A stretch of DNA of 64,000 nt from a virus. Below, one piece after another: positions 9,615 to 22,191 of the stretch. The notes below the pieces were generated by a model. The model made no database searches, was not told the DNA's origin, and saw only the letters and a list, made by a program, of their open reading frames with translations. Positions within the stretch are counted from its first letter, which is position 1. Each line of letters opens with the position of its first letter. The DNA lies in the IMG/VR virus record IMGVR_UViG_3300013136_000003, positions 23,382 through 87,381 of that record. The stretch is one strand, 5' to 3'. The translations under genes were made by a program, and so were the position numbers.

Positions 9615-9649
9615 ATGCCCAAAGAGTTGCTGGTTAGTATAATAACCGC

Positions 9650-18431: not shown

Positions 18432-18989
18432 ATGAAGAAATTATTGTTTTTGGTAGCTTTTGTTCTGCTAGCTATTAGCTGCGAAAAAGAACAAACGCCA
18501 GAACAGATCCTACCGAAACCTACACAGGTTTCGCAAATCGAATTAGATGCGGGTTATACACAGTACGTTCTTCCGAACATTACGCTAACTCAGCTAAAAG
18601 CTGGCAACGGCAATGGAAATGGAAACAACCCAAGAGTAGATAACGGTATTAGAATCGTTTGGGATTCAAATCTCAACAACGGAACCTCGCCAGATGGTCC
18701 AATTTACTTGGAAGAAGGAGAGAACATGCAGTTGAGCATCGAATGGTTGGCTGATGAAATTCCAGGAGCAACTGTAAATTGGTACACAAACGATCAGCAA
18801 GTAGCTAGTGTAAATTGGTTGGGCGTGCTATCTGAATCCTGGATAGGTTCTTGGTACCCAGGTTATTCGACAGTAACGGTTATTACAGCAGTCATTTACC
18901 GCCCGAAACCTAATTACAACGGACCACACCCATGGAACGGTTGGCTTCAGCCTTACCAAGATAACGTCGTCGTACACATCGTTCCATAA
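18432..18989 (+). CDS. Lipoprotein
   Basis: 185 residues. Signal peptide MKKLLFLVAFVLLAI ending in the lipobox SCEKE, so the Cys is probably lipidated and the protein held at the cell envelope. A Gly/Asn-rich linker precedes a Trp-rich beta domain (NWYTNDQQVASVNW). Envelope lipoproteins of phages often block superinfection; here this is only an inference. Confidence 0.85.
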   Translation: MKKLLFLVAFVLLAISCEKEQTPEQILPKPTQVSQIELDAGYTQYVLPNITLTQLKAGNGNGNGNNPRVDNGIRIVWDSNLNNGTSPDGPIYLEEGENMQLSIEWLADEIPGATVNWYTNDQQVASVNWLGVLSESWIGSWYPGYSTVTVITAVIYRPKPNYNGPHPWNGWLQPYQDNVVVHIVP

Positions 18990-19029
18990 TTTTTTACTGA
19001 AGAAAAACCGATTGATAAGATCATAGTAT

Positions 19030-19505
19030 ATTATCAACCTAAGTTCTTAAACATTTTGCGTTCGGTAGAGGAATCAGGAAGTCATGAGCCTGGTTCTAGT
19101 GCGTGCCAGAACAACCTGTATTGCAAAAGCAGGTAATGGCTCGAGCTAGGGGGATGCCCCACATGCAATGAAAAAGGCGGCCAAGCGGTCGGCATGAACT
19201 GTCTAACCAGCAGAGCTTGAGGTTTCGATCAGATACTTAAATGGTATCTTGCAAACGACGTACGGGTATACAAGATCCCCGTCTTGTGGCCGAATAATTT
19301 TCGTTGCGTGAAATAAGGCACGCAGTTTGTTGTGGTGACACAGCAGCGGTTCATGGAGCAGCTAACCTGCTTTGAGCTGCCCTCGACAGAGGGAACTGAT
19401 GGTCGTCGTACACACTTGCAGCGCAACATCGAACTGGAGGTAAAACCTAACCCTTCCGTACGTTCTACTGAGCGATATTAAACCGGCCACAGTGCCGGTT
19501 TTTTT
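19030..19505 (+). ncRNA. Large structured RNA candidate
   Basis: About 475 bases without a credible gene, ending in a strong terminator. Many paired elements are visible: GTTCT/AGAAC, CCTG/CAGG, GGGG-ATG-CCCC, GATAC/GTATC, GCGTG/CACGC, GCAGC/GCTGC and CCCTC/GAGGG. Two look like pseudoknots: ACGGG/CCCGT interleaved with CAAGA/TCTTG near 19260-19300, and ATTGCA (about 19119) with TGCAAT (about 19163). I checked for tmRNA, RNase P and tRNA signatures and saw none that convince. It could belong to a known large phage RNA class (GOLLD, ROOL) that I cannot identify by eye. Confidence 0.65.
19481..19505 (+). terminator. Terminator of the structured RNA
   Basis: AACCGGC-loop-GCCGGTT followed by a T run. 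Confidence 0.9.
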
Positions 19506-19522
19506 ATGCGACTCGCGCTGCA

Positions 19523-19550
19523 CAAAAAAAAGCCGGACTGGCCGGCTTTT
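19523..19550. terminator. Bidirectional terminator
   Basis: AAAAGCCGG-ACTGG-CCGGCTTTT with an A8 run on the left; mainly serves the leftward DUF4494 gene. Confidence 0.85.
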
Positions 19551-19568: not shown

Positions 19569-19769
19569 TTACTCCTCCAAAACGCTCATGATCTTTGATT
19601 CCTGAACGCTCTCGATAAAGCACGGAGAGATTCCATGAGAGAAACGCTTTAACGCTTTGTCTTCTGCATCTCCGACCGAGTCGGCATCCACCAAGTGTTG
19701 TTCTTTCACTTTCTTGACCTTTCCGTTTTCCTGGTCAACTTCAAATCTGATTTTTACTAAGTAGTACAT
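19569..19769 (-). CDS. DUF4494 family protein
   Basis: 66 residues. MYYLVKIRFEVDQENGKVKK, VKEQHLVDADSVGDAE and ESKIMSV match DUF4494, a family found mainly in Bacteroidetes and their phages. Function unknown. Confidence 0.85.
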   Translation of the reverse strand: MYYLVKIRFEVDQENGKVKKVKEQHLVDADSVGDAEDKALKRFSHGISPCFIESVQESKIMSVLEE

Positions 19770-20947: not shown

Positions 20948-21129
20948 GCAAATCCATCTTCAATAAGGATTGGGAAGAATTCGTAAAGACGTTAACCCCA
21001 GAACAGCAAGAAGCTCTAAAACAATACGACGAAGCTGTTTTTAAAGCTCAGCAAAGAAAACCATTTATCGTTTGCTCAGCTAAGCTGGCTGAAGAATTGC
21101 AAAAATTACAAGAACAACCGAATGAATAA
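20944..21129 (+). CDS. Unknown small protein
   Basis: 61 residues, overlaps both neighbours by a few bases (ATGA-type), so translationally coupled to thymidylate synthase downstream. Helical, charged; no motif. Confidence 0.7.
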   Translation: MSKSIFNKDWEEFVKTLTPEQQEALKQYDEAVFKAQQRKPFIVCSAKLAEELQKLQEQPNE

Positions 21130-21829
21130 CTTAGATAAGCAATACTTTGAACTGTTGGAAGACATTCTAAGTAACGGAACACAAAAAGGAGACCGGACCG
21201 GCACTGGAAACATCTCAGTGTTCGGTAGAATGATTCGCCACAAGATGAGCGAAGGTTTTCCGCTCATCACAACCAAGAAAGTTTATTTCAAGGGGGTTCT
21301 CGTCGAACTTCTCTGGTTCCTCAAAGGTGGGACCAACATCAAGTACATGGTGGAAAATGACTGCACCATCTGGGTAGGAGATGCTTACAAAAAATTTCAA
21401 AGCGTTCAGAACGCCATCATTGGGTTAAAGCCGCCTGCGTCTGATGAAGCACTCGCTAAGTACATCGATTGGTACGAAAACATTAAGACTAAAGACGATT
21501 TTATCGAAAAAATAAAAACAGACGACCAGTTTGCACAAAGGCATGGTGATCTTGGCCCAGTTTATGGAAAGCAATGGAGAGAATGGCAAGGATCAATTCC
21601 ATCAATCGATCAGATAAAAGATCTCATAGACAAATTAAAAAATAATCCAGAAGATCGTCGAATGATCGTAAGCGCATGGAACGTTCAGGAAATTCCATTA
21701 ATGACTCTACCTCCGTGCCACTATTCATTTCAGTGTTACGCTAGGCCATTAAGTTCAAAAGAGCGAGTTAATTTATGGAAGGTAAAACACGGAATGACAG
21801 AATCAGAAGAATTACTTTACCTTTACTAA
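21122..21829 (+). pseudogene. thyA: Thymidylate synthase, N-terminal part (frameshifted)
   Basis: Contains the start of a thymidylate synthase: DRTGTGNISVFG, FPLITTKKVYFKGVLVELLWF, GDLGPVYGKQWREW and the catalytic cysteine in PPCHYSFQCY. The frame ends at 21829 inside the long insertion seen in Bacteroidetes-type enzymes (LSSKERVNLW...). The rest continues in the -1 frame (next entry). A single missing base near 21790-21830 would explain it. The region is more AT-rich than the rest of the gene. Confidence 0.85.
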
Positions 21830-22191
21830 ATTCAACATTAGAGGAACAAAATATTCCAAAATATGAGTTATCTCTAATGTTTAACATTCGCAGCAATGAC
21901 GTTCCGTTGGGCTTGCCTTTCAACTTGGCTTCCTACGGCCTCCTTCTTGAGATCTTAGCGAAACACGTGAACATGGTTCCTGGAGAGCTGATAGCATCTA
22001 TCGGAGACACTCACATCTACTTGAACCAAGTGCCGATGATCAAGGAACAGTTGGAAAGAGAATCTTTTCCATTACCAACTATAAAGATAGATGACCGCCA
22101 AGTCGACGACATTTCTGAGTACAAGATAGAGGATTTCGAGATCTTTGGTTACCAATCTCAGTCGGCGATAAAAATACCTCTTTCTAATTAG
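21775..22191 (+). pseudogene. thyA: Thymidylate synthase, C-terminal part (frameshifted)
   Basis: Carries the remaining motifs: SLMFNIRSNDVPLGLPFNLA (substrate binding, with the Asn that selects dUMP over dCMP) and SIGDTHIYLN. Correct enzyme sequence resumes at about 21820 (LLNSTLEEQNIPKYELS). Either a broken gene, a programmed frameshift, or an assembly error; the ATG at 21775 is probably not used. Confidence 0.8.

Follow-up and report, generated by a model that had tools for sequence, protein, structure and literature searches.

The 64,000-nucleotide stretch of DNA analysed here (the window) sits in an 87-kb IMG/VR record that encodes a T4-like terminase, a baseplate wedge protein, PhoH and two sigma factors. 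At positions 19030–19505, the initial annotation had placed a large structured non-coding RNA of unknown class, and we find that a structured non-coding RNA fills this gene-free gap of about 475 bases. Its gene extends on the plus strand from about 19040, the putative start of the transcript, to 19507, which corresponds to an RNA of roughly 450 nt that is kept in relatives while its flanks are not. On the 5′ side lies a co-oriented, lipoprotein-like open reading frame (ORF; 18432–18989, plus strand) separated from the RNA by about 50 bases. A lipobox-like start (LAISC) agrees with the proposed lipoprotein gene, but the ORF has no Pfam match, and it is not kept beside the RNA in relatives. On the 3′ side, the RNA adjoins the convergent gene of a DUF4494 protein (19569–19769, minus strand; PF14902, E value 1.5e-11), as had been annotated, and homologues of this protein are encoded near the RNA in relatives.

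Two intrinsic terminators face each other between the RNA and the DUF4494 gene. The strong terminator described earlier is the one that belongs to the RNA (19480–19507, plus strand), and in relatives a terminator of different sequence takes the equivalent place; the opposing one (19528–19550, minus strand) is assigned to the DUF4494 gene. Upstream, a putative promoter of the form AAAACC-N17-TATATT (19004–19032, plus strand) overlaps the element TAGTATATTATC at 19024–19035, which makes the suggestion that an upstream element could be a promoter a good one, and the RNA likely has a promoter of its own. An AAAACC-N16/17-TATAAT-like pair occurs at the equivalent place in nearly all aligned relatives, with weak genome-wide enrichment of the AAAACC/TATAAT pair, and the window contains 17 copies of TAGTATATTATC with at most two mismatches where 2.5 would be expected. 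Sites resembling TAGTATATTATC (for example at 9635, 29439 and 50436) perhaps represent a phage promoter class, in a record that has two sigma factors. We also observed, further downstream, a thymidylate synthase that is seemingly split into overlapping frames (21122–21829 and 21775–22191) where a relative (contig L274) has one frame of 432 amino acids, by frameshift, sequencing error or something else.

A protein-coding reading of the gap is ruled out: no conserved reading frame was found among the relatives, whose longest stop-free runs differ and whose indels are mostly of single bases, and this favours an RNA. The minimum free energy of the sequence is −170.8 kcal/mol compared to −142.1 ± 6.1 in dinucleotide shuffles (z = −4.7) and, together with the covariation described below, the RNA is almost certainly real. 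At gathering thresholds, Rfam gives zero matches in the window, which is also free of tRNA and tmRNA according to ARAGORN. RNase P and group I introns, whose signatures inspection by eye had already failed to show along with those of tmRNA and tRNA, gave no match either, and neither GOLLD nor ROOL, for which no match had been claimed, appears in Rfam results up to an E value of 10.

The RNA is nevertheless not of an unknown class. A relaxed Rfam search of the window returned the manA motif (RF01745) at full length at 19072–19292 (51.0 bits, E value 3.6e-12), and when RF01745 was searched against the whole record it matched twice in succession, at 19071–19292 (52.2 bits) and 19263–19464 (37.2 bits, E value 1.6e-9). 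The second match was probably missing from the relaxed listing through the collapsing of overlapping matches; searched without the first core, the second half still matches RF01745 with 26.9 bits (E value 2.1e-5). Neither score in the window, nor those of 34.9–50.5 bits in relatives, reaches the curated gathering score of 55.2 bits, so that routine annotation overlooks this RNA.

To place the RNA among phages, we turned to the terminase, whose nearest homologues are in uncultured huge phages, Tenacibaculum phages PTm1 and pT24 and Sphingomonas phage PAU, and not in cyanophages. Used as bait, it brought 80 close relatives from IMG/VR, whereas the DUF4494 and UvsX-like proteins brought none. In 50 of these records searched with RF01745, tandem pairs occur in five and one copy at the contig end in a sixth, and a pattern scan yielded further contigs that bear the RNA. 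In total, twelve IMG/VR contigs besides the window carry the same RNA (two of them cut at the contig end), with one two-core locus per record in the RF01745 search of the window record and its relatives. These give six distinct full-length sequences including that of the window, which is 63–66% identical to the others. By RF01745 and by R1, a covariance model built only from the first core of window-type phages, the RNA is missing from four relatives of roughly 270 kb as well as from several partial ones, in some cases also by R2, a model of the second core alone. The carriers are a clade of large T4-like phages.

Searches further afield gave little. With the RNA as query, blastn against phage and plasmid records returned no credible match; the pattern CTAACCAG..GGGTATACA hit 29 chance loci in IMG/VR, of which none had a manA motif; a core-2 pattern search gave a single extra match (L351), again by chance; and a scan of genome contigs found cyanophage-type manA or chance matches only. 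Among 28 prokaryote genomes and nine phage records, the best RF01745 match not of the cyanophage manA type reached 19.1 bits; it came from Prevotella phage Lak-B5 (MK250024, 128435–128526; L338; E value 0.0025) and is too short for trust.

Guided by the manA layout and by visual inspection, we drew a nested structure of 115 pairs and then counted it on the alignment. Over the six distinct full-length sequences, 99.2% of cells are paired, and both sides change in 34 pairs, compared to a mean of 11.7 in shuffles, none of 500 of which was as high. This set is small, and four of its sequences are 87–93% alike. Sliding the partners by 1–3 columns lowers pairing to 37–45%, a control that flatters the structure because it was fitted to these few, related sequences; the double changes in P0, P1, P4, P7, P4′ and P7′ are the main support for the predicted fold.

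From 5′ to 3′, the helices follow the order P0, P1, P2, core 1, P9, core 2, P9′ and the 3′ strands of P2 and P0. P0 closes the whole RNA (19059–19069 with 19464–19474, plus strand; double changes in four pairs, 98% of cells paired), and the terminator follows a few bases 3′ of it without overlap. P1 is a hairpin (19070–19097, plus strand) with double changes in seven of nine pairs. P2 (19099–19103 with 19457–19461, plus strand; 100% of cells paired, one double change) encloses both cores, joining the 5′ side of core 1 to the 3′ side of core 2, and neither of the inner P2 strands required for two separate manA RNAs is present. Each core (core 1 at 19104–19282 and core 2 at 19283–19456, plus strand) has in turn a short P2a, a hairpin P3, a P4 with three hairpins (P5–P7 in core 1), P8 and P9 with an 11-base loop. 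The initial count of at least seven hairpins holds, and the two pseudoknots reported with them find no support, as the long-range helices P0 and P2 are nested. A long-range alternative from RNAalifold (columns 172–177 with 380–385) breaks the manA-like P8 and was not adopted, and a loop–loop pseudoknot of P5 with P7, considered by eye, was set aside as its loops are nearly invariant and the complement is missing in core 1.

For core 1, homology to manA runs in both directions. R1 recovers 35 of 45 cyanophage manA loci offered to it, all at full length (E values 1.9e-9 to 0.011). In a joint alignment of core 1 with cyanophage manA, 88% of cells are paired, double changes affect 33 of 50 pairs, and covariation scores 0.391 compared to 0.128 when shuffled, although this alignment was fitted to the structure and is biased towards it. 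Several of its pairs pass from A-U or U-A in cyanophages to C-G or G-C in window-type phages. Through full-length matches, the reciprocal search and common covarying helices, the core structure and motifs of manA are present, and we consider core 1 very likely to be manA-related.

Core 2 is more diverged, and its homology is one-directional, seen from RF01745 and the joint model R3 towards core 2. It could be that core 1 alone derives from manA, with the 3′ half being an accessory domain, unrelated to manA, within a standalone RNA, as R2 recovers no cyanophage manA and R1 does not recover the second half. We regard this as unlikely in view of the RF01745 matches to the second half (34.9–44.9 bits; the window and five relatives), well beyond the 19.1-bit background, of its recovery by R3 in two sequences (E values 3.3e-4 and 0.0014), and of the helix order and 11-nt P9 loop that both cores have in common. 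Core 2 is thus also likely, from these sequence comparisons, to be manA-related.

The clearest evidence on the putative transcription unit is an empty site. In contig L362, from a relative that lacks the RNA, 91 bases separate the homologues of the two flanking genes (this comparison is drawn from IMG/VR contigs, not isolates), and the downstream gene is directly preceded by a TATAAT-like element both there and where the RNA is present. Therefore, the RNA appears to be a unit that can be separated from that gene and does not serve as its leader, and we hold with high confidence that it is an independent one. A 5′ UTR placement before a gene, as is likely for manA, is not what we see, given the terminator, the convergent gene and the empty site.

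These observations bear on the possibility that the RNA is a cis-acting riboswitch or attenuator whose cores both sense a ligand and set terminator read-through into downstream genes. The original description of the manA motif placed it often in potential 5′ UTRs and took it for a probable cis-regulator and a candidate riboswitch (PMC2864571, 2010), Rfam types RF01745 as Cis-reg, and tandem riboswitches are known (PMC9481103). At the window RNA, where we examined this putative role by gene context, no controlled gene or switching terminator was seen: the terminator overlaps neither P0 nor P2, the next gene (DUF4494) is convergent, and the next gene of relatives has its own promoter-like element and exists without the RNA in a sister clade. 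In cyanophages the picture is mixed. Of 94 cyanophage-type manA loci sorted with a simple classifier, about 55 lead directly into an ORF, about 28 into a terminator-like hairpin first and six into a tRNA, and the next gene in named cyanophages may be purL, talC, gp32 or a small hypothetical gene, or, in P-TIM68, a gene on the opposite strand. Such varied genes poorly match a ligand-specific switch, although some members may still be one, and in the literature covered we found no report of a manA ligand. For the window RNA, we consider a riboswitch improbable.

Within this wider family, a terminator-like element TAGACCTAAGATGCAACT...GGGCAGATGGTCTTTTTT recurs 3′ of cyanophage manA (L050, L052, L058, L080, L084 and L107), and cyanophage-type manA also occurs in contigs of bacterial or archaeal metagenome-assembled or single-cell genomes that are probably phage contigs (L304, L311, L313 and L326).

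Near-perfect sigma-70 promoters, with at least 11 of 12 positions matching TTGACA/TATAAT, end just 5′ of the RNA in 83 of 92 cyanophage-type loci (counted without a shuffled control), which places manA at the start of a transcript and could point to a 5′ leader with a protective or antiterminating effect on its transcript, as cyanophage manA might have. With a terminator immediately 3′ of the window RNA and no co-oriented gene before it, such a leader is quite improbable here. Least probable of all, by a little, is that the upstream gene's mRNA carries the RNA as a structured 3′ UTR or a stability element, a reading which the co-oriented window ORF would allow but which cannot hold in L260, L274 and L280, because there the unconserved upstream gene is divergent and runs away from the RNA (in L257, the neighbour is a small co-oriented ORF). 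A small conserved gene (MGFNKFFVPEP... or MSFNKYFIPEP...) adjoins the RNA in L257, L260, L265, L274 and L280 and is not beside the window RNA.

Our preferred explanation, held with moderate confidence, is that the locus is an independently transcribed non-coding RNA gene, manA-related, whose core was duplicated within one common outer stem. Its support at the sequence level comprises two manA-like cores, a fold with compensatory changes, its own terminator and promoter-like element, and presence or absence as a unit between the same flanking genes. The empty site, these own elements and the changing upstream neighbour are the reasons to favour a standalone, probably trans-acting RNA over a riboswitch or UTR. 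The RNA would be transcribed in infection as a separate, stable species of roughly 450 nt and would probably act in trans, its most likely role being that of a structured platform to which a protein or RNA complex of phage or host would bind. As a proposal for the mechanism, it may serve as a scaffold or built-in dimer, its two pseudo-symmetric lobes carrying out in one molecule a task that a pair of single-core manA RNAs might perform. A bolder and rather doubtful extension is that all manA-type RNAs are trans-acting dimers and not riboswitches, with the window clade carrying a fused dimer made by core duplication within the outer stem.

Two manA folds in an apparently self-standing RNA suggest that RNAs of this type can act alone. 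The motif was previously known singly and as a suspected gene switch; a literature search that covered few subscription journals found no two-core or terminator-bound form. A standalone form with its own terminator and no gene to control poses a question for the family, namely what a manA RNA itself binds, and one RNA with two cores offers a compact object for structural work. It also extends the manA family past cyanophages into another group of large T4-like phages, hidden by present thresholds.

Compared to manA (RF01745; Weinberg et al. 2010, PMC2864571), known from marine metagenomes, gamma-proteobacteria and cyanophages, the window RNA has the same core (GUGnCnGAAyAA, hairpin, UAAnG, multi-hairpin P4, P8 and P9 with an 11-nt loop), starts likewise just 3′ of a promoter-like element and is also carried by T4-like phages, although their terminase does not place them near cyanophages. 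Whereas manA has one core closed by an outer stem (GGGAG/CUCCC), the window RNA has two within one outer stem, an additional closing helix P0, its own terminator, no gene under control and sub-cut-off scores. We do not file it under RF01745 because its score, two-core layout and placement all depart from that family. Another cyanophage RNA, wcaG (RF01761), which is reported to lie near manA in S-CREM1 (PMC9964418), has no match in the window. Tandem riboswitches (PMC9481103) likewise hold a fold twice in one RNA, but they precede a regulated gene, whereas the window RNA precedes none and has its cores within a common outer stem. GOLLD and ROOL (PMC12286853) are similarly large, ornate and phage-encoded; the window RNA differs in being shorter, in lacking an Rfam match to them and a tRNA in the window, and in its homology to manA instead. 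Both form homo-oligomers (PMC12286853), and the notion of a built-in dimer would be akin to this.
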